Position numbers and translations under genes: made by a program
From: Streptomyces sp. V3I8
Lineage (GTDB): Bacteria > Actinomycetota > Actinomycetes > Streptomycetales > Streptomycetaceae
NCBI RefSeq assembly: GCF_030817535.1
Contig: NZ_JAUSZL010000002.1
Span: 7,502,001-7,566,000, forward strand
Reading direction: 5' to 3'
DNA length: 64,000 bases
In this document: piece by piece, positions 169 through 14,143 of the stretch
Layout: each line of letters starts with the position of its first letter
Position numbering within the stretch: position 1 is the first letter of the stretch
Notes under the pieces: generated by a model
What the model was told of the DNA's origin: nothing
Seen by the model: only the letters and a program-made list of their open reading frames with translations
Databases searched by the model: none

Positions 169-954
169 GTGACCGGGCAGGACAGGCCGAGCAGTGGTAT
201 TCGGTCGATGAACAGCGTTCTCAGCACACTTCGCGTCCTCGAGGAAGTCGCCGTGCGACAGCCCATCGGCGTCTCGGAGCTGGCGCGTGTCACGCAGATC
301 CCGAAGAGCTCGGTCCAGCGCTGCCTCGTCACACTTCAGCAGGCCGGCTGGCTACGGGTCGTCGACCCTGAGCACGCGCGGTGGGGCGTGACGATGAAGG
401 CTCTCGCCATCGGATTGCGCGGGGCCGGTGAGCAGGACCTCCGGGATCTGGCGGCGCCCGTGGTCAAACGCCTCGCCACGGAGACCGAGGAGACGGTCCA
501 ACTCGGGCTGCGCGACGGGGAGGACTACGTCATCGTCGCCACGCAGGAGAGCACGCACGTGGTCCGTGTCATCCTTGAGGTGGGCACGCGTCTGCCGCTC
601 AGGGCCACTTCGGCGGGCGTGGCGATCATGTCGCGCCTTGCCTCCACTGATGTGGATGAGTTGCTGAAGCGTGAGCTGAGGGAATACGCGCAGTCCCCCG
701 TGCTGAGTTCCGACGAGCTGCGCGAGGAGATCCGGCGGACCGCCGGGCTCGGATACGCGCGCAACGTGTCCGGGTGGTTCCGTCCGCACGTCGCCTCGCT
801 CGCCGCGGCCATCACGGACCCGTCCGGACGGCCCATAGCAGGAGTCACGCTCGCCGTCCCGGAGATGCGCTACGACAATTCGCAGGAAGAGACCCTGGCA
901 GCGCTGGTCGTCGCGGCCGCGGACGAGATCAGCACGCTGATCGCATCCGCCTGA
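169..954 (+). CDS. IclR family transcriptional regulator
   Basis: A 261-aa DNA-binding regulator. The N-terminal winged helix (about residues 15-75) contains the IclR recognition-helix pattern IPKSSVQRCL. The C-terminal effector domain (about 90-255) shows the usual LPLRATSAGVAIMS segment, although the family's common Cys in this area is not evident. The GTG at 169 was chosen because GGGGAGG lies 11 nt upstream; an internal ATG at 208 has no ribosome binding site. It faces the amidohydrolase/transporter pair and probably senses a small organic acid used by this catabolic region. Family assignment is firm; target and ligand are inferred. Confidence 0.88.
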   Translation: MTGQDRPSSGIRSMNSVLSTLRVLEEVAVRQPIGVSELARVTQIPKSSVQRCLVTLQQAGWLRVVDPEHARWGVTMKALAIGLRGAGEQDLRDLAAPVVKRLATETEETVQLGLRDGEDYVIVATQESTHVVRVILEVGTRLPLRATSAGVAIMSRLASTDVDELLKRELREYAQSPVLSSDELREEIRRTAGLGYARNVSGWFRPHVASLAAAITDPSGRPIAGVTLAVPEMRYDNSQEETLAALVVAAADEISTLIASA

Positions 955-1024: not shown

Positions 1025-1957
1025 TCAGAGGCGGTTCTCCGGGTCCTGGTCGGCATTGCGCCACACGTAGTCGGCGATCTCGCCATGCGTGGCGTACCAG
1101 ACGTTCTCATGCGACTTCATGTGCTCGACCAGCCCGCGCAGCGCGTGCATCCTCGAGCGGTGGCCGATGATGTGCGGATGACAGACCATCTGGAAGACCG
1201 CTCCGTCGGCATAGGCCGAGTCGAACTCGTCCTTCATGATCTCGGCCCAGGCGCGGGGAGGGGTGTAGGGCCGGTGGGGACCGAACCGCGTCATCATGAA
1301 GTAGGGCGCGTCGTCGCGGATCCACTCCATGGGAACCTCCACGATCCCCGTGGGGCGCCTGTTCGAGAGGATCTCGTAGGGCATGTCGTCGGCCATGAGT
1401 GACGTGTCGTACCGGAACCCGAGCTCCTGCAGGATCTCCACGGTGGAGTCGGAGAAGTCGGCACTGGGTGTCCTGATCCCGACCGGCCGCTGACCGACGA
1501 GGTTCTCCAGCACATCCAGGCTGCGGCGGTTGAGGTCGAGCTCGTCCTCCGGGGTCAGCAGCGCGTTCCGCTCGTGGATCCAGCCGTGCGCACCGATCTC
1601 GTGGCCTGCCGCGGCGTAGTCCTTGGCCTCCTGCGGGTGCAGCAGCGCGGACACCGCGGGGATGAAGAACGTGGCCGGGATCTGGAACTCTTCGAGAAGC
1701 CGGAGAATCCGGCGCGATCCCACCCGCGACCCGAACTCGCCCCTGCCCATCGCGCCGGGCGAGGTGTCGCCCTCGCGCAACGAGAGCGTCTCGTGGTCGG
1801 GATCGAAGGAGAGTGCCACGGCCATACGGGCGCCGCCCGGCCATTCCCGCGGAGTCAGGTCCCGCCCCGCGCGGACGCGCTCAGCGTGTCCCCGCCATAC
1901 GGCCTCGTCCCACTGCCACGGCTCTTGTCCCGTTGATGCCTCGGGTGAAGTACTCAT
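1025..1957 (-). CDS. Polysaccharide-deacetylase (NodB fold) family amidohydrolase
   Basis: A 310-aa cytoplasmic protein with no signal peptide. The metal site is visible as FDPDHE (D52, D54, H55) and HGWIH (H124, H128), followed by RTPSADFSDST, as in the carbohydrate esterase 4 / PuuE-like superfamily. Cytoplasmic members of this fold hydrolyse small amides such as ureides and cyclic imides as well as sugars, and lack of export argues against a cell-wall substrate. Its ATG shares one base with the stop of the upstream transporter gene (TGATG), so translation is probably coupled. An imide or amide substrate is inference; exact activity is unknown. Confidence 0.8.
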   Translation of the reverse strand: MSTSPEASTGQEPWQWDEAVWRGHAERVRAGRDLTPREWPGGARMAVALSFDPDHETLSLREGDTSPGAMGRGEFGSRVGSRRILRLLEEFQIPATFFIPAVSALLHPQEAKDYAAAGHEIGAHGWIHERNALLTPEDELDLNRRSLDVLENLVGQRPVGIRTPSADFSDSTVEILQELGFRYDTSLMADDMPYEILSNRRPTGIVEVPMEWIRDDAPYFMMTRFGPHRPYTPPRAWAEIMKDEFDSAYADGAVFQMVCHPHIIGHRSRMHALRGLVEHMKSHENVWYATHGEIADYVWRNADQDPENRL

Positions 1958-3282
1958 CAGTCGAGTGATCCCTTCTTCACGCCGTCGGACATCGTCATGA
2001 TCGTGACCATGCCGATCGCTGCCGAGGCGATGATGTAGATCCAGATCTTGTCCTGGTGCCCGATGCTGGCCAGCCAGGTGGTGAAGTACGGTGCGGTGCC
2101 GCCGAACAGCGCGACGGCCGTCGCGTAGGGAAGTCCGATCCCGGTCGTCCGCACCGAGGTCGGGAAGAGTTCGGCGTAGATGGCGGCCACGATCGCGCAG
2201 TTGCCGGCGAGCAGGACCATCCCGATGGATTCGACCAGTAGCAGCGTCCAGAAGCCGCCGGCGCCGAGCATGCGATAGGCGGGCCAGGCGTACAGCGCGA
2301 AACCGATCACGAAGAACAGGAACAGGGGACGCCTGCCCCAGCGGTCCGACAGGATTCCGCCGATCGGAAGCAGGATCATGAACAGGACGACCGCGAGGGA
2401 GTTCGCGAGCAGCGCCTTGTCCAGGTCGAGGCCGTTCGTCGTGCTGGCGTAGCCCGGCATGCTGGTGATCCACAGGTAATAGATGATCGCGCCGGGAACC
2501 GTGATCCCGATGACGCGCAGCATGTTCAGCTTGTGTGAGGCGAACAGCGTCTTGACCGGCTTGTGGGTCTTGCCCGACTGTTCCGCGTTGTCGAAGTGCT
2601 CGCTCTCCTGCGTACGGAGGCGCAGCCACAGGACGATCAGCCCCAGAGCGGCGGCGACGGCGAAGGCGATCCGCCATCCGTACCTCTCCATCTGGTGGTC
2701 GTTCAGGTTCGAGGTCACGGCCAGCGAGAGCAGCGAGGCGAGCAGCATTCCACTCGCCGTCGACACCTGCTGGAAGGATCCGGCGAACGCCCGCCGTCCC
2801 GGTGCCGCGTTCTCGACGATGTACGACACGGAGCTCGGCCACTCGCCGCCGGCGGAGAAGGCCTGCACCAGCCTGGCTACCAGCAGCACCAGGGGCGCGC
2901 CGACTCCGATCTGCTCGTACGTCGGACACACCGCGATGGCGAGGCCGCCGGCCGACATGAGGGTGATGGTCAGCGTGAGGGCCTTCTTGCGGCCGTACCG
3001 GTCGGCGTAGGCGCCGAGGACGAGGCCGCCGAGAGGGCGTACGAAGAATCCCACCGCGAAGATCGCCAGTGTGGACAGAAACGCTGTGGTGGGATCCCCC
3101 TTGGGGAAGAACTGACCTGCGAAGACCGGAGCCAGGGACGCATAGATTCCCCAGTCCACGTACTCGACCGTGTTCCCGAGCGAGCCGGCGAAGATCGCCT
3201 TCATCTGTCTGCGGGTCATCCTGCTCGAAGGCGCATCACCGTTTGCGCGTCCGATCACGGCGGTTTGCTGTTCTGCTGCCAC
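1957..3282 (-). CDS. MFS transporter, metabolite:H+ symporter (MHS) type
   Basis: A 441-aa integral membrane protein of about 12 helices. It shows the MHS hallmarks: GNTVEYVDWGIYASLAP in helix 1, RPLGGLVLGAYADRYGRKKAL between helices 2 and 3, and RLVQAFSAGGEW in helix 4. MHS carriers import organic acids, amino acids, betaines or aromatic acids with protons. The start is the GTG at 3282, preceded by AGGAGA; an upstream in-frame extension lacks that signal. It is the first gene of a two-gene operon with the NodB-fold hydrolase and probably imports its substrate. Substrate unknown. Confidence 0.85.
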   Translation of the reverse strand: MAAEQQTAVIGRANGDAPSSRMTRRQMKAIFAGSLGNTVEYVDWGIYASLAPVFAGQFFPKGDPTTAFLSTLAIFAVGFFVRPLGGLVLGAYADRYGRKKALTLTITLMSAGGLAIAVCPTYEQIGVGAPLVLLVARLVQAFSAGGEWPSSVSYIVENAAPGRRAFAGSFQQVSTASGMLLASLLSLAVTSNLNDHQMERYGWRIAFAVAAALGLIVLWLRLRTQESEHFDNAEQSGKTHKPVKTLFASHKLNMLRVIGITVPGAIIYYLWITSMPGYASTTNGLDLDKALLANSLAVVLFMILLPIGGILSDRWGRRPLFLFFVIGFALYAWPAYRMLGAGGFWTLLLVESIGMVLLAGNCAIVAAIYAELFPTSVRTTGIGLPYATAVALFGGTAPYFTTWLASIGHQDKIWIYIIASAAIGMVTIMTMSDGVKKGSLD

Positions 3283-3634
3283 GACTTCTCCTATGCATCG
3301 GAGTGAGGAGGAGTTCCGTCGAACCGCCACGAGGGTCGGTCGTCAGGGAGACGCGGGTGCCGAGCGGCTGCAGCGGGCGGCACACGGCGCTCCTCCGCCG
3401 AGGCAAGAGAACTCTGTGGTCCGGGTGATCTTGTCCGGTGCCACGTCGTGCCACTCTCCGGGCCCGCTGCCCGCGTTGTGCCGGCCCGTCGCGACGCATC
3501 CGGGTCCGGCTTCGTTGCTGCGTTCGTTCCCTTGTTGGACCATCTAGTGGCACGGAGTATCGTGTTGCGGTACGGTGACTGTCAACCTTTTGTATTACTG
3601 GAATACGCACGGCGTGAAGAAAGTGAGTCCAGGT
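3283..3634. other. Divergent promoter region (transporter / Old Yellow Enzyme operons)
   Basis: About 350 bp without a convincing gene. It separates the leftward transporter operon from the rightward flavin-reductase operon, so it must hold both promoters. The only clear signal is the GntR-type operator match at 3590-3600. Other frames here lack ribosome binding sites and typical codon use. Confidence 0.6.
3590..3600 (+). promoter_or_regulatory. Putative GntR operator, copy 1 (TTGTATTACTG)
   Basis: Matches the core YTGTATTACNG also found at 6421-6431 and 7931-7941. It also lies within a looser inverted repeat, GTATT-N5-AATAC. It sits 35 bp before the chosen start of the flavin reductase. The form resembles FadR-subfamily operators (TnGTnnnACnA). 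Confidence 0.55.
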
Positions 3635-4723
3635 GTGTCCAGCACAGAGTTCGCGGGCCCGGAAATGACCCCGCTGCGACTGCGGGAAGTCACCATCCCC
3701 AATCGCCTGTGGATGTCCCCCATGGCCCAGTACGCGGCCGGAACCGACGGGAAACCGACCGACTGGCACCTCGTGCACTACGGTGCGCGCGCAGTCGGCG
3801 GAGTGGGCCTGGTCATGATCGAGTCCAATGCCGTCGGACCGCTGCACCGGACCACGTCGGCGGACCTCGGAATCTGGAACGAGGAGCAGGCCGCCGCGCA
3901 CCGGCGCCTGACCTCGTTCATAGCCCAGCAGGGCGCGGTCCCCGCGGTCCAGCTGCTGGCCGCCGGCAGGAAGGGATCCCACCAGGTTCCCTGGGAGGGC
4001 GAGGGGCAGAACGGCCCCGTGAGCGTGGCCGACGGCGGCTGGGACGTGTTCGGGCCGTCCGCGGTCCCGTTCGGCGACCTGTCCGTTCCCCGGAAAGCCA
4101 CCTCCGCGGACATGGACGAGGTCGTCGAGGCCTTCGCCCGGTCGGCGCGGATGGCCCATCTGGCGGGGTACGAGGTCGTCGAGATCCACGCTGCGCACGG
4201 ATACCTTCTGCACCAGTTCCTCTCCCCCCTGGCCAACCAGCGGACGGACGAGTACGGCGGCAGCCTGCAGAACCGGATGCGTCTTCCGCTGCGCGTGGCC
4301 GAGGCCGTCCGTGAGGCCTTTCCGGCGGAGAAGCCCGTCTTCGTCCGCATCACCGCGACGGACTGGGCCGAGGGCGGCATCACCATCGACGAGGCGGTGA
4401 CGTTCGCCAAGGAGCTGGCGACCGTGGGCATCGACCTTCTCGACGTCACCTCAGGCGTGCTCGTGCGCGACCTGGAGGCCCGTCCGCCGGCCCGGGACGG
4501 GGTCAATGTCGAGTTTGCGAACACACTGAAGAAGGCGTCGGGACTCGCGGTCGCCCCGGTCGGACAGATCGCCGACCTGTCGCTGGCCGGCCGGGTCCTG
4601 GCCGACGGCCAGGCGGACGCCGTGCTGGTCGGACGCGCCCTGCTGCGCGATCCGTACTTCGCCCTGCGCAACCGGGCCGGCGACCCGGCGGCCTGGCCGG
4701 CCCGGTACCACCGTGCGCTGTAA
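3635..4723 (+). CDS. Old Yellow Enzyme family NADH:flavin oxidoreductase (YqjM-like)
   Basis: A 362-aa FMN-dependent ene-reductase expected to reduce an activated C=C bond with NAD(P)H. The TIM barrel is complete. EIHAAHGYLLHQFLSP carries the substrate-anion histidines (H185, H188), followed by NQRTDEYGGSLQNR and a C-terminal VGRALLRDP. Two YqjM features are altered: the FMN-modulating Cys in MSPMC is Ala here (MSPMAQY, A31), and the usual AHAGRK motif reads LAAGRK. The GTG at 3635 was chosen because family members begin just before the TPLRLR motif; the ribosome binding site is weak. The alpha/beta hydrolase gene follows 43 bp downstream in the same operon. Confidence 0.86.
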   Translation: MSSTEFAGPEMTPLRLREVTIPNRLWMSPMAQYAAGTDGKPTDWHLVHYGARAVGGVGLVMIESNAVGPLHRTTSADLGIWNEEQAAAHRRLTSFIAQQGAVPAVQLLAAGRKGSHQVPWEGEGQNGPVSVADGGWDVFGPSAVPFGDLSVPRKATSADMDEVVEAFARSARMAHLAGYEVVEIHAAHGYLLHQFLSPLANQRTDEYGGSLQNRMRLPLRVAEAVREAFPAEKPVFVRITATDWAEGGITIDEAVTFAKELATVGIDLLDVTSGVLVRDLEARPPARDGVNVEFANTLKKASGLAVAPVGQIADLSLAGRVLADGQADAVLVGRALLRDPYFALRNRAGDPAAWPARYHRAL

Positions 4724-4766
4724 TCCGGATGTGCTGTGGAGACCGCAAGAGGAAGAGAGGACGACA

Positions 4767-5564
4767 GTGACGACCAGAATTGCCGCGAGCCGCGAGGTTC
4801 AGCGCGCCGACCACACGACGATCCACTACACGATCAGCGGCCCGGCCGACGGCCCGACCCTGGCCTTCATCCACGGCTGGGGCTGCAACCGTAACGACTT
4901 CGACGCGATAGCCGGCTTCCTCCCGGAGAATTACCGCCTCCTCGCGGTCGATCTCGGAGAGCACGGCGACTCCCGGTCCACCCGTGACGTCTGGACGATG
5001 GAGGAGTTCGCCCATGACGTGAAGGCCGTGCTGGAAACGGAGTCGGTGGACGACTGTGTCGTGGTCGGGCACTCCCTCGGCGGAGCGGTCGCCGTCGAAG
5101 CCGGCCGGCTCCTTCCCGACGTGGTCTCCCATGTGGTCGCGCTCGACGCCCTGCACTACCTCGCGTTGTTCCCCGCACCGGACGAGCAGCTCGCCAAGGC
5201 GCTCCTCCAGCCGTTCCACGACGACTTCCCCGCCGCGGTACGCGGCCTGGTCGAGGGAGGCTCGCTGGAGGACACCGATCCGGCACTGAAGGACGCCTAC
5301 TTCGAGAAGATGTCGGCCGTACGGCAGCCTGCGGGCCTGAGATCGATCGAGGGCCTGGTGCACTGGGACATGGACGCCGCGCTGCGCGAGGTCAAGCAGC
5401 CGATCACGCTGTTCGCGGTGCGCGACATCCTCACGCAGGAAGCCATCGACCGCTACGGCGACCGCATCCATATCGTGCCCGTCGACCTGGGAAGCCACCA
5501 CTTCCACGTCGAGTCCCCCGAAGGCACCGCCAAGCTGCTGGTCGACGTGGTGTCCGCCCGGTAG
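4767..5564 (+). CDS. Alpha/beta-fold hydrolase
   Basis: A 265-aa cytoplasmic hydrolase. HGWG forms the oxyanion region, VDLGEHGDS follows, and the nucleophile elbow GHSLGG places Ser103; the C-terminal SHHFHVESP supplies the catalytic His. The family includes enol-lactonases, esterases and C-C hydrolases. The GTG at 4767 has GAGAGG 6 nt upstream. Placed directly behind the Old Yellow Enzyme gene, it probably acts on the reduced product, for example by opening a lactone or ester. The substrate is not known. Confidence 0.84.
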   Translation: MTTRIAASREVQRADHTTIHYTISGPADGPTLAFIHGWGCNRNDFDAIAGFLPENYRLLAVDLGEHGDSRSTRDVWTMEEFAHDVKAVLETESVDDCVVVGHSLGGAVAVEAGRLLPDVVSHVVALDALHYLALFPAPDEQLAKALLQPFHDDFPAAVRGLVEGGSLEDTDPALKDAYFEKMSAVRQPAGLRSIEGLVHWDMDAALREVKQPITLFAVRDILTQEAIDRYGDRIHIVPVDLGSHHFHVESPEGTAKLLVDVVSAR

Positions 5565-5740
5565 TGCTGCGCCCGGTTCCTCTGCCAGGTCGTGGATTGC
5601 GTCCAGCACCTGGCAGAGGGTCAGGCCGGCACATGTGCTTGTGTGCTGAGCCGCCGCAGGGTACGGACGGCATACGGTGAGCCCCGGATGACGCCGTGGT
5701 CGTGGGCCGGTACCGGCACGGCCCACCCCACACCGGCCGG

Positions 5741-6185
5741 GGACGAACACCTCGGCCACCAACTTCTCGCTGAGGTCCCACAGCCGCCGTGCCGACTCGG
5801 GGACCAAGGCGTGGCTGACGGCCGCGGAGGGGATGCTGTCGGGCGTCACGGGCGTCACGGGCGTCATCTCGTCGTCCAGCGATGCGATGTCGTTGTCCTT
5901 GAGGTAGACGCCGCCGACGTCGGCCAGCTGTGAGGTGGTGGCCGCGAATACGATCGTGCCGGCGCCCTGGTGCGGGGTCTTCTTCCCGTGCGCGGTGTCG
6001 ATGACCGGCCGACCTCGTCGAACAAGCCCATGGCCCGCGGCCCCTTCCGGCCGACCGCACCGTTGAGGGCCGTACCGACGACGACACCCGGTGCACCGCA
6101 TAGCCGCGGATCCCGTCGGCCCGGCGCCGGTCGAGCTCGACGGTGAACAGTGCGTTGGCGAGCTTGGACTGTCCGCACCGATACC
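5741..6185 (-). pseudogene. Degraded short-chain dehydrogenase (SDR) remnant
   Basis: Reading leftward, three frames together give a recognisable SDR C-terminal half: CGQSKLANALFTVELDRR (active-site helix), then GVVVGTALNGAVG, then GAGTIVFAATTSQLADVGG and ARRLWDLSEKLVAE. Frame changes fall near 6088, where one C is missing between AVH and the expected P of PGVVV, and near 6006 between FDEVGR and RPVIDT. The N-terminal Rossmann portion is absent and no stop occurs at the usual place. The gene was probably once a reductase of the surrounding pathway and is now non-functional. Confidence 0.72.
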
Positions 6186-6406
6186 ACGGGTTCCTCCGGT
6201 GCCGACGGCACGTGCTCCGTGCAGACCCGGATCCGCGCTCGGACCGGGCAGCAGGGCAGGTCGAACCGCCCTGCACCACGCCGACATCCCTGACCCGGAC
6301 CTCGTAGAGCCTGAAACGGGCGGCCTGGCGGCGGAACACCCCTTCCGCGGAAGAGACGGACAAGCCGGCCCAGGACTGAACACAGACCCGGGCACAGACC
6401 TATGGC

Positions 6407-6437
6407 GGCATACCGTAATACTGTATTACGGTATGCC
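6407..6437. promoter_or_regulatory. Perfect 15-bp-arm operator palindrome, GntR operator copy 2
   Basis: The arms GGCATACCGTAATAC and GTATTACGGTATGCC surround one central T. Position 6421-6431 within it reads CTGTATTACGG, the core shared with the sites at 3590 and 7931. It ends 26 bp before the ATG of the CMD-family gene, a position typical of a repressor operator overlapping promoter or leader. Repression by the GntR regulator at 7979 is inferred. Confidence 0.72.
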
Positions 6438-6462
6438 TGGTCGCCAATCGAAGGAGCACACC

Positions 6463-6885
6463 ATGACCACTGCTCAGGATCCCCAGCTCTACATCGATGA
6501 GATGGCACGCAAGCGGGGCTACGTCCTCGACTACCACAAGGTGATGGCCAAGCAGGACTTCCCCGTTCTCCAAGCCGCCAACGGCCTTGTCGGCGCCGCC
6601 TATCTCGACCAGCGGACACTGGACCGCAAGACGAAGGAACTCATCTTCATCGTCAGCCTCACGGTGATGCGGGCCTCGAAGGGGCACATCCAGAGTCACA
6701 TCAGAGTCGCCCTGGACCTGGGGGTCACTCCGCAGGAGATCCTCGAAGCGATCGAGATCAGCCTGCCCGAGGCCGGCATCGTGGCCTTCCAGACCGGGTT
6801 CGAGGCCTGGCGTGAGGTCGTGGGCGCCGACGGCCTGGAGCCGACCGTGGAGGCTCACCAGGGAGGATCGGGCGCGGGCGCCTGA
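6463..6885 (+). CDS. Carboxymuconolactone decarboxylase (CMD/AhpD) family protein
   Basis: A 140-aa all-helical protein of the CMD family, with AAYLDQRTLDRKTKELIFIVSL followed by HIQSHIRVALDLGVTPQEILEAIE. The family either decarboxylates gamma-carboxymuconolactone or, with a CxxC pair, reduces peroxides. Here the position of that pair reads ASKGHIQSH and the protein has no cysteine at all, so AhpD-type redox chemistry is excluded. The conserved His and Glu remain, which fits a lyase or isomerase role. The ATG at 6463 has AAGGAG 6 nt upstream. The dehydrogenase gene follows after 69 bp. Confidence 0.82.
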   Translation: MTTAQDPQLYIDEMARKRGYVLDYHKVMAKQDFPVLQAANGLVGAAYLDQRTLDRKTKELIFIVSLTVMRASKGHIQSHIRVALDLGVTPQEILEAIEISLPEAGIVAFQTGFEAWREVVGADGLEPTVEAHQGGSGAGA

Positions 6886-6954
6886 TGTCGTCAGACAACT
6901 CCTGACGACCGGGAATCCAGGCCGTCCAGGACCAGCAAGGAAAGCAGGTCAGAC

Positions 6955-7857
6955 ATGACGGACACCGTGACCTTCATCGGCTTGGGCACGATGGGGCAGC
7001 CCATGGTCCGCAACCTCGCACGATCCGTGCCGGTAACGGTCTACGACACCGACGCCGACGCGATCGCCGTGGCCGCCCGGAACGACGGTGTGACGGCCTT
7101 GGCGAATCCCGACGACGCGGCCGACACCGACGTCCTCATCCTCATGCTCCCCAACAGCGGGATCGTCCAGCGTGTGCTCGGCGATCCGCAGGACCCCGCG
7201 AGCCTCGCCGGCCGACTGCGTCCGGGTTCCCTCGTCGTGGACATGGGCTCGTCGGCACCCCGGGCCACCCAGGAGCTGGCCGAGCGGCTCCGGGAGCGCG
7301 GAGTGGGGATGGTCGACGCTCCGGTCTCCGGCGGCCCGCGCAAGGCCAGGACGGCCGAGCTCACGATCATGGCGGGCGGGCCGGCCGACGACTACGAGCG
7401 GTCGCTCCCGCTGCTGCGCGCCGTGGGAACGTCGGTGACGCACGTCGGCGCCGCCGGTTCCGCGCATGCGCTGAAGGCGCTCAACAACCTGCTGTCGGCC
7501 ATCGGACTGGTCGGAGCACTCGAAGTCCTCACCGCGGGAACCAAATTCGGCCTGGATCCACGGATCATGCTCGACGTCATCAACCGGTCCACCGGTCGCA
7601 ACCAGTCGACCGAGGTCAAGATCGGGCCGGAGGTGCTGGACGGACGGTTCCAGGTCGGGTTCTCCCTCCCGCTGACCGTAAAGGACATCACCACCGCGCT
7701 GGACCTGTTCACGTCACTGGACCTGTCGCCGGAGGTCTCGCAGGCCTGTGTCCGGTTCTGCCGAGCGGCGCTCGCTGGCCTCGACGGGGAGAACCCGGAT
7801 CAGTCCGAGATCGCCCGCTACATGGCGACGACGACCGGTGTCGACCTCACCCGGTGA
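6955..7857 (+). CDS. NAD(P)-dependent beta-hydroxyacid dehydrogenase (3-hydroxyisobutyrate dehydrogenase family)
   Basis: A 300-aa oxidoreductase. The Rossmann signature FIGLGTMGQPM is at residues 7-17, the substrate-binding DAPVSGGPRKA at 121-131, and the catalytic lysine K174 lies in HALKALNN. Family members oxidise 3-hydroxyisobutyrate, tartronate semialdehyde or related beta-hydroxyacids. It follows the CMD-family gene with a GGAAAGCAGG-type binding site. In this cluster it probably handles a short hydroxyacid or semialdehyde intermediate; the exact substrate cannot be read from sequence. Confidence 0.87.
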   Translation: MTDTVTFIGLGTMGQPMVRNLARSVPVTVYDTDADAIAVAARNDGVTALANPDDAADTDVLILMLPNSGIVQRVLGDPQDPASLAGRLRPGSLVVDMGSSAPRATQELAERLRERGVGMVDAPVSGGPRKARTAELTIMAGGPADDYERSLPLLRAVGTSVTHVGAAGSAHALKALNNLLSAIGLVGALEVLTAGTKFGLDPRIMLDVINRSTGRNQSTEVKIGPEVLDGRFQVGFSLPLTVKDITTALDLFTSLDLSPEVSQACVRFCRAALAGLDGENPDQSEIARYMATTTGVDLTR

Positions 7858-7930
7858 CGCGCCGGTGTGAGCTGCCCGCCGAAATCTCCTCGAACATCGC
7901 GGCAGTGTCATGACCAGCCTTGCCGAATTA

Positions 7931-7941
7931 CTGTATTACAG
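7931..7941 (+). promoter_or_regulatory. Putative GntR operator, copy 3 (CTGTATTACAG)
   Basis: A perfect palindrome CTGTA-T-TACAG (extendable to ACTGTA/TACAGT), 37 bp before the regulator's start. It shares the core YTGTATTACNG with 3590-3600 and 6421-6431. The position suggests autoregulation. Confidence 0.65.
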
Positions 7942-7978
7942 TGTTACGTAAGAACCGGTGACGAGAAGGAGCGGCCGC

Positions 7979-8677
7979 GTGGCAGGGCAGCGAGTGCAGC
8001 GTGTGGCCGCGCCACTACGGTCCCAGGTGCTCGAACTGCTCCGGCAAGACATCCTGGCAGCGGAGTTCACACCCGGGGAGCGGCTGGTCGAGGCGCGGCT
8101 GTGCGCACGGTACGAGGTCTCCCGGACGGTGATCCGTGAGGTCTTGCGACAGCTTGAGTCCGAAGGGCTTGTGACCACGGTTGCGAACCGCGGTCCGGTC
8201 GTCACCGAACTGACGGCCTCCGACGCCAAGGCGCTCTACGAGGTGCGGTGCGCGCTGGAGGGCCTGGCCGGGGCCCTGTTCGCCGAGCGGTCCACCCCCG
8301 AACAGTGTGAGCAGATGGGTGAGTTGGTTCGCCGTTTCTCACGCACCTACGGCAAGGCCGACCTGAGCGAGCGGCTCTCGATGAAGGACGAGTTCTACGA
8401 CGTCCTCACTGCCGGGGCGGGGAATACGATCATCGATTCGACCCTCCGCGGCATCCACGCACGCGTGCAGATGCTGCGTGGGCTGTCCATGCAGGCTGAA
8501 GGGCGGGACCCGGAGACCGTCCGGGAACTTACCGCCATCCACGATGCCGCGGCCGTGCGCCGTGATGCCGGTGCCGCTCGTGAAGCGTGCGAGATTCACG
8601 TCCGCAATGCCGCGGCGACCGCACTGGCACAGCTCGCCGCGCAGCGCTCCGAGCACCAGAGGACCGCCGCCGGCTGA
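7979..8677 (+). CDS. GntR family regulator, FadR/FCD subfamily
   Basis: A 232-aa regulator. The N-terminal winged helix (about residues 8-75) shows LRSQVLELLRQDILAAEFTPGERLVE and VSRTVIREVLRQLESEGLV. The C-terminal FCD domain (about 85-215) contains the expected metal/ligand positions, including the pattern ALYEVRCALEG and later HDAAA and HVRNA. The GTG at 7979 has AAGGAG 7 nt upstream. The palindrome in its own leader and copies before the two neighbouring catabolic units suggest it represses the Old Yellow Enzyme, CMD and its own genes until a pathway acid binds. The regulon assignment is inferred. Confidence 0.88.
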   Translation: MAGQRVQRVAAPLRSQVLELLRQDILAAEFTPGERLVEARLCARYEVSRTVIREVLRQLESEGLVTTVANRGPVVTELTASDAKALYEVRCALEGLAGALFAERSTPEQCEQMGELVRRFSRTYGKADLSERLSMKDEFYDVLTAGAGNTIIDSTLRGIHARVQMLRGLSMQAEGRDPETVRELTAIHDAAAVRRDAGAAREACEIHVRNAAATALAQLAAQRSEHQRTAAG

Positions 8678-8753: not shown

Positions 8754-9587
8754 TCATTCGGCCGGCTCCCGGACTTCTTCTGCCCGGGCCAGGACACCCC
8801 TTGCCCGTTCGAATACCGGCCGATCGACCATCTGTCCGCCGACCACGGTGACCGAATCGCCGACGCCCAGGACGCTGCGTGCCCAGCGCAGTTCGTCGGC
8901 GGTGGGAGCGAACCCGTCGGCGGCGGGCCGCACCTGAGCGGGGTGAATGCACAGCTTGCCGGTGAAGCCCAGGCGCCGGGCGTGCGCGATGTCGGCATCG
9001 AGCGCACCGGCGTCCCGTACGGCGGTGGTGACACCGTCGACGGGCGGGCGGATGCCGGCTGCCGCGGACGCGAGCACCAGTCGGGAGCGGGCATGTGTGA
9101 GGGCGACATGGTCATCCGGGGCAACGCCCAGCTGAACGGCAAGATCGACATTGCCGAAAGCGACGCGCACGACTCCGGGGACGGAGCACACCTCATGGGC
9201 CCGCTCGATGCCGAGAGCCGTCTCGACCAGCGGGATCAGCGGGCAGCGTCCGGCCACACGGCCGGCGATCTCTGCCAGGACGTACGCGTCCTCGGCCTTG
9301 GGCACCATGACGGGGCAGCCGTGGGCGGCCGCTTGCGCCAGGTCCGCCTCGAACCAGGGGGTGCCGGGTGGATTGATGCGTACGACGGCTCGGGTGCCAA
9401 GGGCAGGCCAGGTGCTCGCGTTGCCGCGGGCACTGTCCTTGTCGTCCGGGGCGACGGCGTCCTCCAGATCGATGACGACCAGGTCGGTGCCGGATGAGGC
9501 TGCCTTGTCGAAGCGGTCGGGCCGGTTGCCCGGGACGAAGAGCAGGGTTCGCGCGGCGGTGACGCGGTCGCCGTCCGGGTGGCTCAT
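8754..9587 (-). CDS. HpcH/HpaI (CitE-like) acyl-CoA lyase, probable citramalyl-CoA lyase
   Basis: A 277-aa TIM-barrel protein of the CitE family. TLLFVPGNRPDRFDKA opens the chain, VVIDLEDAV follows, and the Mg2+ ligands are E122 in PLVETALG and D148 in FGNVDLA. Stand-alone CitE proteins cleave citramalyl-CoA or malyl-CoA to acetyl-CoA plus pyruvate or glyoxylate. Its ATG overlaps the stop of the upstream hydratase gene by 4 nt (ATGA). With the CoA-transferase and hydratase nearby it fits the last step of itaconate or mesaconate breakdown. Substrate preference is inferred from context. Confidence 0.83.
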   Translation of the reverse strand: MSHPDGDRVTAARTLLFVPGNRPDRFDKAASSGTDLVVIDLEDAVAPDDKDSARGNASTWPALGTRAVVRINPPGTPWFEADLAQAAAHGCPVMVPKAEDAYVLAEIAGRVAGRCPLIPLVETALGIERAHEVCSVPGVVRVAFGNVDLAVQLGVAPDDHVALTHARSRLVLASAAAGIRPPVDGVTTAVRDAGALDADIAHARRLGFTGKLCIHPAQVRPAADGFAPTADELRWARSVLGVGDSVTVVGGQMVDRPVFERARGVLARAEEVREPAE

Positions 9588-10453
9588 GCGAAGGTCACCT
9601 CGGCGGTGGCGTGCCGGGCCTCGCGGTAGGTGGCGACGCGCAGCCGGGCCTGTCCTTCGGTGGGTGTGCCGCCGGCGATGAGGTGCTCGCCGACGAACGC
9701 AGGCCGGTGCAGCCGGTAGGAGAGCGACCGTACCCGGCGCCTGGGGGCGTTCCTGCGCACGAGTTCCAGGATGAGCAGAGCCAGCAGCGGGCCGTGGACG
9801 ACGAGACCCGGATACCCCTCCACATCCCGCGCGTACGGAGTGTCGTAGTGGATGCGGTGAGCGTTTGCGGTGAGCGCGCTGAACCGGAACAGCAGCGTTT
9901 CGGTCGGCCTGAGCCGGAGCTGCCACTGCCCCTCCGCCTCCGGTACGGCCGAGATGTCGAGCGTGGCCGGATGCCGGGGCGCGTTGCCGTTGCCCGACCG
10001 GTAGACGATGTCCTGCTCCTCCACCACGCAGAGGCGGCCGTGCTGCCGGAACTCCTGGCGCTCGGTGACGAACAGAAGCTCGCCACTGCGGCCGTGCCTG
10101 GGGGTGACCGCGGCCAGGCTGCTGGTGCGTTCGGCCGGCTCGCCGAGACGCAGGGGCTCGATGACCTCGCAGCGTCCACCGGCGAACATGCGCCGACGGT
10201 CCGGAACGGGCGGCAGATTGCGGCCGTCGCGCAGGTGTCCGTCGGGGCCGAGGCCCTGCTGGGGAACCCACTGCAGGAAGTAGAGCCACTGCCACAGAGG
10301 CGGCAGCGGATCGCCGGACTCGGCGGCGGCGCCGGGGAGGTCAAGCAGGTTCGAAAAGGCCGCCGCCGGGCCGAGCAACAGGGGATCCTTGGCAGTCGCC
10401 GGTTCGGGATGCCAGGACTCCACATAGGAGGCGAGGGGCGCAGGCATGGGCAC
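9584..10453 (-). CDS. MaoC/FAS1-like hydratase, probable itaconyl-CoA or mesaconyl-CoA hydratase
   Basis: A 289-aa two-part hotdog protein. The N-terminal half includes PLPPLWQWLYFLQWVPQQGLGPDGH and GGRCEVIEPLRLGE. The C-terminal MaoC-type half contains RFSALTANAHRIHYD and VVHGPLLALL, with the hydratase Asp/His environment. This layout is that of 3-methylfumaryl-CoA (mesaconyl-C4-CoA) hydratase and the itaconyl-CoA hydratase group. The GTG at 10453 with AGAGGA upstream is preferred over the ATG two codons later. It is translationally coupled to the lyase and probably makes citramalyl-CoA. Confidence 0.78.
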   Translation of the reverse strand: MPMPAPLASYVESWHPEPATAKDPLLLGPAAAFSNLLDLPGAAAESGDPLPPLWQWLYFLQWVPQQGLGPDGHLRDGRNLPPVPDRRRMFAGGRCEVIEPLRLGEPAERTSSLAAVTPRHGRSGELLFVTERQEFRQHGRLCVVEEQDIVYRSGNGNAPRHPATLDISAVPEAEGQWQLRLRPTETLLFRFSALTANAHRIHYDTPYARDVEGYPGLVVHGPLLALLILELVRRNAPRRRVRSLSYRLHRPAFVGEHLIAGGTPTEGQARLRVATYREARHATAEVTFA

Positions 10454-10693
10454 GGTTTCCTCTCATCGGGGTGACGACCTGCAGGGCCGGCGCGTGGCGG
10501 CCGTACCAGTGGGCGCAGGTGCCGCCCCGGAGGGCGGCGGGGGAGTGGGTGACTCGTGCACGCCGTACATCATGAGTGCTGATGGATGGAGCTGAACAAT
10601 AAAAAGGCATGATGCAGGTATGCCCGGCCTGTATGACTGCACGGCCGGCAGGGGGACGTCGTCCGGTCCGGATCTGGAACGGGCTGGACGACG
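10454..10693. other. Leader of the hydratase/lyase operon
   Basis: About 240 bp with no gene between the LysR stop and the hydratase start. It contains the LysR-type box at 10570-10584. It also holds a hairpin at 10521-10538 (GCCGCCC, 4-nt loop, GGGCGGC) that would form in the leftward leader RNA. Confidence 0.5.
10570..10584. promoter_or_regulatory. Putative LysR box upstream of the hydratase/lyase operon
   Basis: TCATGAGTGCTGATG matches 14 of 15 bases of TCATGAGTGCTCATG found at 11691 in the LysR/CoA-transferase promoter. It contains a T-N11-A element. Two near-identical copies at the two promoters of one pathway point to one LysR regulon. Confidence 0.6.
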
Positions 10694-11626
10694 TCACTCA
10701 CCGTGAGGCTGCGCGGACGGCCATCGGCCCTCACGCACGGCCACGCTGATCTGCCGTACAAGCTCCTGAGCCACCGCATCCACGGCGGGTGGCGTCCGGC
10801 CGGACCTCGGGGTGGCGAGGACGATCGAACGCCACACCGCCGGCTCGGTGAGCGGCGCTGCGCTCAGAGTGCCGTTCGCGACGTCCTCGGCGATGCCGAC
10901 CCCGGGCAGCACGGTCCAGCCGTGCTCGGCCAGTACGAGCTGTTTCTGCACCCGCAGGGAGTTGGTCTGGACGACGACCTCCATGTCGGCCTGCGCGCGC
11001 GCCGCAGCGGCGTCGATCAGTGCGCGCAGGGCATGGCCGGAGGCGGGCAGGACCATGGGATGGCCGGCGACCTCGGCAAAGGGCACGGGACGATCGGCCT
11101 TCAGGCCGGCGGAGGGCGGGGCTGCCACCCACAGCTGTTCGCGCACCAGCGGCCGGGTGTGGAGCGAGGGGGTGCTGTCCAGGTTGTACAGCAGCGTCAG
11201 GTCCAGGTCCCCGTCGTCGAGCCATCGCTGGAGGTGCCCGGAGTAGGCCGTCATCAGGCGCAGTTCGACACCGGGGTGCTTCCTGGCGAGGGCCGAGACC
11301 AGTGGTTCGGCCAGCAGATCGATCGTGCTCTCGAGCAGGCCGGCGTTGACGATGCCCGTGACAGCGCCGGGTGCGGGCCGCACCTCGGCACGGGCCCGTT
11401 CCAGCTCGTTCAGCGCCCGCCGAGCCCGGTCCACCATGATCGAGCCGGCCTCGGTGGGGCGCATGCCCAGCCGGGTCCGCTCGAAGAGCGGGACGCCGAG
11501 TTCGTGCTCCAGGGTGCGGATCTGCCGGGTCACGGCCGGCTGCACCAGGTGCAGCAGCTCCGCAGCGCGGGTCACGCTTCCCACCTCGGCAACCGTGACG
11601 AGCGCTTTCAGCTGTTTGACGTCCAC
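10694..11626 (-). CDS. LysR family transcriptional regulator
   Basis: A 310-aa LysR regulator. The N-terminal helix-turn-helix reads LKALVTVAEVGSVTRAAELL and QPAVTRQIRTLEHELGVPLF; the ligand-binding domain starts near residue 90. The GTG at 11626, with GGGGAG 4 nt upstream, places the HTH at the usual position; upstream in-frame starts would add an unlikely tail. It lies between the hydratase/lyase operon and the divergent CoA-transferase/dehydrogenase operon, like the LysR activators of itaconate genes in pseudomonads. The two TCATGAGTGCT boxes are its likely targets; itaconate or its CoA ester is a plausible inducer. Confidence 0.88.
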   Translation of the reverse strand: MDVKQLKALVTVAEVGSVTRAAELLHLVQPAVTRQIRTLEHELGVPLFERTRLGMRPTEAGSIMVDRARRALNELERARAEVRPAPGAVTGIVNAGLLESTIDLLAEPLVSALARKHPGVELRLMTAYSGHLQRWLDDGDLDLTLLYNLDSTPSLHTRPLVREQLWVAAPPSAGLKADRPVPFAEVAGHPMVLPASGHALRALIDAAAARAQADMEVVVQTNSLRVQKQLVLAEHGWTVLPGVGIAEDVANGTLSAAPLTEPAVWRSIVLATPRSGRTPPAVDAVAQELVRQISVAVREGRWPSAQPHGE

Positions 11627-11690
11627 TGCTCTCCCCTCAGCATCCGCACCGGGCATGATGCCATCACGATTTAGTATTTCACTCCCACTG

Positions 11691-11706
11691 TCATGAGTGC
11701 TCATGA
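11691..11706. promoter_or_regulatory. LysR box between LysR and CoA-transferase genes
   Basis: TCATGAG and CTCATGA are perfect 7-bp inverted arms around TG. The site includes the LysR T-N11-A pattern and lies 40 bp before the CoA-transferase start and 65 bp before the LysR start. The near-copy at 10570 supports its use. Confidence 0.7.
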
Positions 11707-11745
11707 TGGCTTCAGCGGGTCGAGTCCACTCCCGGAGGCCAACGC

Positions 11746-12945
11746 ATGCCTGAGCACCCCGAAAACCTGCCCCTGTCCGGTGTTACCGTCGTCAGCGTCG
11801 AGCAGGCGGTGGCGGCCCCGTTCGCCACGCGGCAACTCGCCGACCTCGGCGCCCGGGTGATCAAGGTGGAGCGGCCGGGAGGAGGTGACTTCGCCCGCCG
11901 GTACGACACAAGCGTGCACGGTGAGTCCAGCTATTTCGTCTGGCTCAACCGCTCGAAGGAGTCCCTGACCCTCGACCTGAAGACCGGACGGGGACGACAC
12001 ATCCTGGAACAACTCCTCGCCCGGGCTGATGTGTTCGTGCAGAACCTGACGCCCGGCGCGGCTGCGAGGATAGGTCTGGGAACAGACGCGCTGCGCGAGC
12101 GTTTCCCGTCACTGATCCCCTGCTCGATCTCCGGCTACGGCGCCACCGGACCCTGGGCCGAACGCAAGGCGTACGACCTGCTGGTGCAGTGCCAGACCGG
12201 ACTCGTCTCCCTCACCGGAAGCCCGGAGGAACCCGCCAGGGTGGGCATCTCCATCGCCGACATCGCGGGCGGTATGTACGCCTACTCGGGCATCCTCACG
12301 GCTCTGTTCACCAGGGCCACCACGGGTGCCGTACGACCTGTGGAGGTATCGCTGTTCGAGGCGCTGGCGGAATGGCTGGGCCAGCCCGCGTACTACACCC
12401 GCTTCACCGGCAGCCAGCCCCCACGGGTGGGTACCCAGCACGCCACCATCGCCCCTTACGGCGTCTACACCTGCGCCGACGGCAAGGACGTCCTGTTCTC
12501 CGTCCAGACTGAACGCGAGTGGGCCGCGCTGTGCGAGCGCTTCCTCGACGCCCCCGATCTGGTTGACGACCCGCGCTTCGCCTCCGGCCCGGCACGCGTC
12601 GCCCACCGCGAGGAACTGAACGCGGTCGTGACCGCACGGTTCGCGGAGACGGACAGTGCCGAGGCGATGAGACTGCTGGACGAGTCCGCCATCGCCAACG
12701 CCGGAGTCAACGACGTCGAGGACTTCCTTGCCCACCCGGTGCTTGCCGCACGCGGCCGCTGGCGGGACGTGCCGATTCCTGGCGGAATGACGGTGCCGGC
12801 CCTGCTTCCTCCGGCCGACCTGGCAGGCGTGATGCCCCGCATGGGCGCCGTGCCTGCTGCAGGCGAGCACACCGAGCCTCTCCTCGCCGAACTGGGATAC
12901 AGCCCGGCCGAGATCCAGGACCTACGAGCCGCCCGCATCCTCTGA
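11746..12945 (+). CDS. CaiB/BaiF family III acyl-CoA:carboxylate CoA-transferase
   Basis: A 399-aa family III CoA-transferase. The N-terminal LSGVTVVSVEQAVAAPFATRQLADLGA and KVERPGGGDFAR are characteristic. The catalytic aspartate that forms the mixed anhydride is D144 in RKAYDLLVQ, and the domain end contains AGVNDVEDFLAHP. It most likely moves CoA from succinyl-CoA to a C5 dicarboxylate such as itaconate, mesaconate or methylsuccinate, the first step of the LysR-controlled pathway. The dehydrogenase gene follows after 31 bp. Family certain; substrate inferred. Confidence 0.87.
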   Translation: MPEHPENLPLSGVTVVSVEQAVAAPFATRQLADLGARVIKVERPGGGDFARRYDTSVHGESSYFVWLNRSKESLTLDLKTGRGRHILEQLLARADVFVQNLTPGAAARIGLGTDALRERFPSLIPCSISGYGATGPWAERKAYDLLVQCQTGLVSLTGSPEEPARVGISIADIAGGMYAYSGILTALFTRATTGAVRPVEVSLFEALAEWLGQPAYYTRFTGSQPPRVGTQHATIAPYGVYTCADGKDVLFSVQTEREWAALCERFLDAPDLVDDPRFASGPARVAHREELNAVVTARFAETDSAEAMRLLDESAIANAGVNDVEDFLAHPVLAARGRWRDVPIPGGMTVPALLPPADLAGVMPRMGAVPAAGEHTEPLLAELGYSPAEIQDLRAARIL

Positions 12946-12976
12946 CATCGGCGCCCACTCCCAGGAGCAACTCAAC

Positions 12977-14143
12977 ATGAGCACTCTCGACACCCTGTCC
13001 GAGGACGAGCGGTTCATCGTCCGCACGGTGCACGAATTCGTGGACAAGGAGGTGAAACCTGTCGTCCAGGAGCTGGAGCACGCCAACACCTACCCCGAAG
13101 CCCTGATCGAGCAGATGAAGCAACTCGGCATCTTCGGCCTCGCCGTCCCCGAGCAGTATGGCGGCACCCCTGTCTCCGGCCCCTGCTATGTGCTGATCAC
13201 CGAGGAACTGGCCCGCGGGTGGATGAGCCTGGCCGGCGCGATGGGAGGCCACACGGTCGTGTCCAAGCTGCTGCTGCACTTCGGCACCGAGGAGCAGAAG
13301 CGGCGGTACCTGCCCAAGATGGCCACCGGCGAGATCCGGGCGACCATGGCCCTGACGGAGCCGGGCGGCGGCTCGGATCTGCAGGCGATGCGCACGGTCG
13401 CCCGCAGGGAGGACGACGGATATGTCGTCAACGGCACCAAGACGTGGATCACCAACTCCCGCCGCTCGCAACTGATCGCCCTGCTGTGCAAGACGGACCC
13501 CGAGGCCGCTCCCGCACACCGGGGCATCTCCGTCCTCCTGGTCGAGCACGGGCCGGGGCTCACCATCTCCCGAGACCTGCCCAAGCTCGGCTACAAGGGT
13601 GTGGAGAGCTGCGAACTGTCCTTCGAGGAGTATCGGGCGCCGGCCGACGCTCTGCTCGGCGGCGTGGAGGGCAAGGGCTTCGGGCAGATGATGAAGGGCC
13701 TGGAGACCGGGCGGTTGCAGGTTGCCGCCCGCGCGCTCGGGGTCGCTCGGGCGGCGCTGGAGGACGCGCTGGTTTACGCCCAGGAGCGGGAGTCGTTCGG
13801 CAAGCCGATCTGGCAGCACCAGTCGATCGGCAACTACCTGGCGGACATGGCGACTTCACTGACAGCTGCCCGGCAGCTGACCCTGTACGCGGCGCGAGAG
13901 GCTGACGCCGGGCGGCGAGTAGACATGGAAACAGGGATGGCGAAGCTATTCGCCTCCGAGACGGCCATGCAGATCGCCCTCAACGCCGTGCGCATTCACG
14001 GCGGTTACGGCTACTCCACCGAGTTCGACGTCGAACGCTACTTCCGAGACGCCCCGTTGATGATCGTCGGCGAGGGCACCAACGAGATCCAGCGCAACAT
14101 CATCGCGAGCCAGCTGATCAAGCGAGGAGGTCTGGAGAGGTGA
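12977..14143 (+). CDS. Acyl-CoA dehydrogenase
   Basis: A 388-aa FAD-dependent acyl-CoA dehydrogenase of normal length. It has MALTEPGGGSDLQAMRT and NGTKTWITNS in the middle beta domain, and the catalytic base E366 in VGEGTNEIQRNI. It is co-transcribed with the CoA-transferase. A dehydrogenase next to itaconate genes is known in Pseudomonas. Here it could oxidise methylsuccinyl-CoA to mesaconyl-CoA, linking saturated C5 acids to the hydratase/lyase steps; that role is inference. Confidence 0.88.
   Translation: MSTLDTLSEDERFIVRTVHEFVDKEVKPVVQELEHANTYPEALIEQMKQLGIFGLAVPEQYGGTPVSGPCYVLITEELARGWMSLAGAMGGHTVVSKLLLHFGTEEQKRRYLPKMATGEIRATMALTEPGGGSDLQAMRTVARREDDGYVVNGTKTWITNSRRSQLIALLCKTDPEAAPAHRGISVLLVEHGPGLTISRDLPKLGYKGVESCELSFEEYRAPADALLGGVEGKGFGQMMKGLETGRLQVAARALGVARAALEDALVYAQERESFGKPIWQHQSIGNYLADMATSLTAARQLTLYAAREADAGRRVDMETGMAKLFASETAMQIALNAVRIHGGYGYSTEFDVERYFRDAPLMIVGEGTNEIQRNIIASQLIKRGGLER

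Follow-up and report, generated by a model that had tools for sequence, protein, structure and literature searches.

Which regulator reads a short DNA element that recurs at several promoters of one gene cluster? The question is raised by a 64,000-nt stretch of the Streptomyces sp. V3I8 genome (contig NZ_JAUSZL010000002.1, positions 7,502,001 to 7,566,000; hereafter the window), in which a small catabolic cluster and its own GntR-type regulator gene, gntR, are accompanied by runs of a 7-bp unit, GTAWTAC. Comparison with other genomes shows that these arrays are present, specific to the cluster, conserved, and distributed in line with GntR, and the tag is found again next to this regulator in relatives belonging to other genera. 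On this comparative basis, the soil actinomycete probably switches the cluster by means of one repressor, with a recurring DNA tag at several of the promoters. The reading proposed here, with a probability of about 0.83, is that GntR acts as a local regulator of the cluster, binding the arrays as a repressor that is relieved by a pathway metabolite.

Predicted operator arrays in the window

The original prediction had placed the 11-mer YTGTATTACNG at 3590, 6421 and 7931, and all three copies were found there (3590-3600, 6421-6431 and 7931-7941, all on the plus strand) as the three exact matches in the window. None of 100 dinucleotide shuffles of the window contained the pattern, a zero that overstates the case since the pattern was derived from these same three sites; the tests beyond the window are more independent. 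The 11-mer is real but covers just a portion of a larger element, in which GTAWTAC units follow one another at an 8-bp period, with four, three or two units per array. The near-perfect 31-bp palindrome noticed around the middle copy is the four-unit case of such an array, the central base of 6407-6437 being its sole imperfection. The arrays, the adjoining promoter-like pair and the genes of the cluster are as follows.

3592..3606, predicted operator array 1, two units (GTATTAC-t-GGAATAC), between the Old Yellow Enzyme (OYE) gene (plus strand) and the MFS transporter gene (minus strand)
6407..6437, predicted operator array 2, four units (GGCATAC-c-GTAATAC-t-GTATTAC-g-GTATGCC), before the CMD gene
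7925..7947, predicted operator array 3, three units (GAATTAC-t-GTATTAC-a-GTGTTAC), before gntR
3556..3585, minus strand, promoter-like TTGACA-18-GATACT facing the MFS gene and separated from array 1 by 6 bp
7979..8677, plus strand, gntR, 232 amino acids, winged helix-turn-helix (PF00392) and FCD (PF07729) domains, likely reader of the arrays
3632..4723, plus strand, OYE family oxidoreductase (PF00724)
4767..5564, plus strand, alpha/beta hydrolase (ABH), downstream of and codirectional with OYE
6463..6885, plus strand, CMD-family protein (PF02627)
6955..7857, plus strand, beta-hydroxyacid dehydrogenase (PF03446 and PF14833)
1954..3282, minus strand, MFS transporter of the metabolite/H+ symporter family, probable fourth regulated transcript
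1025..1957, minus strand, polysaccharide-deacetylase/PuuE-like hydrolase, contiguous with the MFS gene at the latter's end and probably co-transcribed with it
208..954, plus strand, IclR-type regulator, member of the same conserved cluster

The arrays end 25, 25 and 31 bp before the likely start codons of OYE (GTG 3632), CMD (ATG 6463) and gntR (GTG 7979), respectively. The site at 3590 does lie upstream of OYE, as had been predicted, but it is not OYE's alone, since it stands between two divergent genes and a promoter-like pair of the TTGACA-GATACT type (one found near the array, against a shuffle mean of 0.3) is directed toward the MFS gene on its other side. Because array 1 adjoins this divergent promoter as well, the regulon probably comprises four transcripts, with the MFS side included. 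No further place was found when the window was scanned with GTAWTACNGTAWTAC at up to two mismatches.

Co-occurrence of the arrays and GntR

In the 9.3-Mb genome of the strain itself, GTAWTACWGTAWTAC matched within one mismatch only at the three places of the cluster (four registers); a single place was found at two mismatches, and up to three mismatches there were 14 forward matches versus 6 for a reversed control pattern. Among 392 Streptomyces genomes, a GntR match at E <= 1e-40 was detected in seven and a site within one mismatch in four, the latter being the genomes with the four best GntR homologues (100, 81, 55 and 55% identity), in which the sites lie 0.1-12.5 kb from gntR; the reversed pattern matched in two of the 392 genomes. 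The chance of such agreement is 1/C(392,4) = 1e-9, a figure to be read with the homology cut chosen after the result was seen. In 13 chosen genomes the pattern occurred at 20 places in 11 genomes, and 18 of these places fall in the contig region of gntR or, in one genome (G765), before CMD on another contig. A class-wide protein search returned the regulator from the strain's own genome only (1/394), a search of the genus with a 46% homologue found 4/392 genomes, and a plasmid search gave nine records, all below 60% identity.

One further scan yielded nine loci, eight with a GntR of 78-84% identity and one (L036) with a homologue of 33%. The eight loci belong to Amycolatopsis (2), Actinosynnema, Streptomyces (2), Actinomadura (2) and Nocardia, i.e., five genera; an additional entry (L037) duplicates L031 in coordinates and matches and was counted once. 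The CMD, dehydrogenase, GntR, ABH, OYE, MFS, PuuE-like hydrolase and IclR genes recur in these loci, with varying order and orientation and with some genes missing per locus, and genes of the PGA_cap type were encountered in three of the tested loci (L028, L033, L037). In-phase units, defined as at least 5/7 matches to GTAWTAC, were counted in 25 promoters, leaving out the S. spiralis ABH gene (L030), the MFS genes of L028 and L033, and the gntR gene of L031, which shares the CMD array. At least two in-phase units were present in 23 of the 25 promoters (exactly two in 13, at least three in 10). An array precedes CMD in 9/9 clusters, the window included and with the S. spiralis CMD on a separate contig, and at least two units were found at all eight counted OYE or ABH heads and in six of eight gntR promoters; in S. 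iranensis, gntR and CMD are divergent and have one array in common. Phasing was further evident from unit matches at fixed offsets in 24 promoters of the nine clusters, determined with no neighbour tie-break, which amounted to 3.79 at -8, 5.29 at +8 and 3.12 at +16 (maxima of 1000 shuffles 2.50, 2.38 and 2.46, respectively), while offsets -16 and +/-24 did not exceed all 1000 shuffles.

The prediction of one GntR regulator with one operator code at several promoters is supported by these comparisons, and the check that it proposed, conservation of the motif in orthologous clusters that keep the regulator, had a positive outcome, with arrays retained across five genera while gene order was shuffled. 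The repeat was initially found by eye and after the fact, as a meaningless coincidence might be, but a chance origin is contradicted by its genome-wide specificity and its retention at corresponding promoters in several genera, and can hardly be entertained.

Proposed regulation by GntR and its alternatives

By its domain make-up, the protein encoded at 7979-8677 is a member of the GntR family, FadR/FCD subfamily (PF00392, 64.7 bits with cut-off 27; PF07729, 72.1 bits with cut-off 24.3). Its predicted structure has a mean predicted local distance difference test score (pLDDT) of 91.7 and a first helix that begins at residue 13; full-length fold matches at 22-28% identity include 7u5q, 7xp0 and 9isw. 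In the proposed mechanism, GntR would bind in-phase arrays of two to four GTAWTAC units with an 8-bp period at its own promoter, the promoter of CMD and the dehydrogenase, and the shared OYE/MFS promoter region, and its presence there would block RNA polymerase and thereby cause repression, including autorepression, as the position of the array suggests. A substrate or intermediate of the pathway, probably a small organic acid, would fill the FCD domain and release GntR, and more than one dimer may occupy an array. Binding itself, a repressing and not an activating role, the inducer, and occupation by more than one dimer are inferred. The reading offers an operator code that can be put to the test for what seems to be an uncharacterised GntR regulator, and it would tie the otherwise unassigned set of OYE, hydrolase, CMD, dehydrogenase, transporter and PuuE-like hydrolase genes into one pathway, so that the inducer could be sought by testing acids against a single reporter.

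Repression is favoured by geometry. A TTGAC box stands 2-4 bp before the array in 7/7 orthologous OYE-side regions (a count without shuffle control), an arrangement in which bound GntR would be expected to obstruct polymerase; in the window, 25-31 bp separate the CMD and gntR arrays from the start codons. Both features speak against the alternative that GntR activates, or both activates and represses, at some promoters. That alternative draws on the position of array 1 immediately upstream of the -35 box of MFS, and has a precedent in HypR of S. coelicolor, for which the excerpts of PMC6608401 describe an activator-like site and one promoter that is less active in the deletion strain; we regard it as improbable.

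The cluster's IclR regulator (208-954) might read the arrays instead of GntR, given that it is conserved in the same clusters (7/8 orthologous loci; the S. spiralis copy is on the contig that carries CMD). However, three Streptomyces genomes (G032, G360 and G384) contain IclR homologues (82, 73 and 47% identity) but neither a GntR match at E <= 1e-40 nor a site within one mismatch, and two others (G125 and G248) have the 55% GntR and sites, while at the same threshold the best IclR match of G125 is 38% and G248 has no match. This double dissociation, in which sites follow GntR and not IclR, disfavours IclR as the reader and leaves it a very small chance. The first of these genomes, G032, carries the ABH, OYE, dehydrogenase, CMD, IclR, MFS and PuuE-like genes (L057, 1443-16096), but gntR was found there only as a fragment (residues 39-112, or 25-111 under other settings) and the MFS gene is split between two frames, so that either decay of the cluster or an assembly error may be involved. 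Its CMD array is worn and scores 16/21 and 11/14, where nine intact CMD promoters score 17-19 and 13-14.

Several observations weigh against regulation by GntR as proposed. Scores like that of the worn CMD array in G032 also occur among the weaker of the intact OYE arrays, and the orthologous promoters are related, so that counts among them are not independent draws. In contrast to its orthologues, array 1 of the window is situated beyond the MFS -35 box, and two loci (L033 and L035) have no transporter read from the TTGAC side; geometry is therefore not uniform, and blocking of polymerase is not obvious everywhere. No site was found within one mismatch for GntR homologues of 42-46% identity (G092, G233, G237), nor within two mismatches in the locus of the 33% homologue (L036). 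At the threshold applied, the gntR promoters of both Actinomadura loci each have a single unit, and no array was found at the S. spiralis ABH fragment (L030) or at the MFS gene of L033. Finally, two operator-like places lie beyond the cluster: one, at G770:C47:86542 (L049:3543), follows a TTGACC box and is without a clear target gene, and the other, at G125:C2:435233 (L050:3234), overlaps the end of an open reading frame (ORF).

Related systems, substrate and neighbouring genes

Systems of this kind are known; GntR here is most likely an FCD-type autorepressor that roughly resembles NanR minus its N-terminal extension. According to excerpts of PMC8012715, three dimers of Escherichia coli NanR bind (GGTATA)3, at least two repeats being needed, and their cooperativity depends on a 32-residue extension that its authors consider unique among closely related regulators. 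The two systems share the FCD-type GntR fold and, as far as that text describes it, an operator of short repeats at close and fixed spacing; at least two repeats in the 8-bp register occur here in the 23 of 25 promoters mentioned above. They differ in the unit, which here is GTAWTAC and itself near-palindromic, in the genes controlled, and in the 32-residue extension, which NanR has and GntR lacks, cooperative binding having been shown for NanR alone. An extension of that length was absent from all 36 aligned sequences (the query and 35 of the 120 homologues listed). Likewise, GntR scored 54 bits against the NanR model NF003011 (cut-off 260) and is below membership, and its best fold likenesses are 7u5q, PmiR, AlkR and VanR, with the NanR chains 6on4 and 6wfq lower down; these nearest folds (PmiR, AlkR/VanR and Brucella 7u5q) have low identity to it.

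Since the arrays fit the repeat feature of NanR and the protein is without its extension, occupation by one dimer and by several are held to be about even. In the former case, for which the prospects are just short of even, a single dimer would sit on a 15-bp dyad GTAWTAC-N-GTAWTAC, any extra units being a flanking preference or palindrome remains. The 13/25 promoters with just two units and a helix 1 that starts at residue 13, leaving no room for NanR's 32-residue cooperative extension, agree with this; the 10/25 promoters with at least three in-phase units, the +16 offset above all 1000 shuffles and the GT-N3-AC core already present in a lone unit do not. Tentatively, and with some doubt, a lineage of actinomycete FCD-type GntR proteins may be envisaged that uses phased arrays of self-palindromic GT-N3-AC units, assembles several dimers cooperatively without the NanR extension, and retains its code in homologues of as little as about 55% identity (perhaps 46%), with the controlled genes changing.

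The operator had also been said to match those of the FadR subfamily, which holds in part. The excerpts of PMC4494728 give the consensus as one TKGT-N3-ACMA palindrome, and GntR here has the same domain make-up and the GT-N3-AC core in its unit; most units lack the outer TK...MA boxes, however, and in-phase repetition falls outside that consensus. T at -1 was seen in 10/40 units and A at +9 in 5/40; these units were chosen at >=6/7 matches to GTAWTAC, so that the core is there by construction. FarR and NagQ, as cited in the same excerpts, recognise the direct repeats TGTATTAWTT and TGGTATT, and thus likewise have repeated GTATT-like units, but are placed in the HutC subfamily, whereas GntR here has an FCD effector domain. 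HypR of S. coelicolor, again judged from excerpts (PMC6608401), is similar as a Streptomyces repressor of the FadR subfamily that controls its own and catabolic genes, and differs in its motif, CTNTGC(A/C)ATGTCAC, and its hydroxyproline genes. Among open PubMed Central literature, judged by title or start of the abstract, none described this operator or cluster, which does not show it to be unpublished.

More distant homologues are accompanied by related elements. The loci L038 (G248) and L039 (G125) combine the 55% GntR homologue (gntR at L038:14738-15346) with a CMD gene of 81% identity and several arrays, which adjoin genes for luciferase-like monooxygenase, alcohol dehydrogenase-like and periplasmic-binding proteins. 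They apparently constitute a second regulon on the same operator code, and one code may thus serve different pathways. Upstream of 46% homologues, at L040:8390-8412 and the matching place of L041, two units occur at a distance of 16 bp, and a weak unit lies between them.

The substrate might be a cyclic imide or an N-heterocyclic acid, although as a lead this is weak and on balance unlikely. By structure look-up, the PuuE-like hydrolase matches 3qbu and PuuE, which excerpts of PMC9304392 name as relatives of the Aspergillus nidulans cyclic imidase HxnM; the same excerpts report that an OYE, HxnT, also acts in the HxnM pathway; and the best solved relative of the beta-hydroxyacid dehydrogenase is 2-hydroxymethylglutarate dehydrogenase (3cky).

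An adjacent acid pathway of the coenzyme A (CoA) type is encoded at 8754-14143 of the window (HpcH lyase, MaoC-like protein, LysR, type III CoA transferase and acyl-CoA dehydrogenase), in which the HpcH lyase matches RipC at 149.6 bits (cut-off 375). Control of these genes by the arrays was considered and rejected, as no place matches GTAWTACNGTAWTAC within two mismatches there; relatives of several of them adjoin CMD in L033. Finally, the region between ABH and CMD (5600-6360) contains minus-strand ORF pieces that, by eye, resemble a decayed short-chain dehydrogenase.

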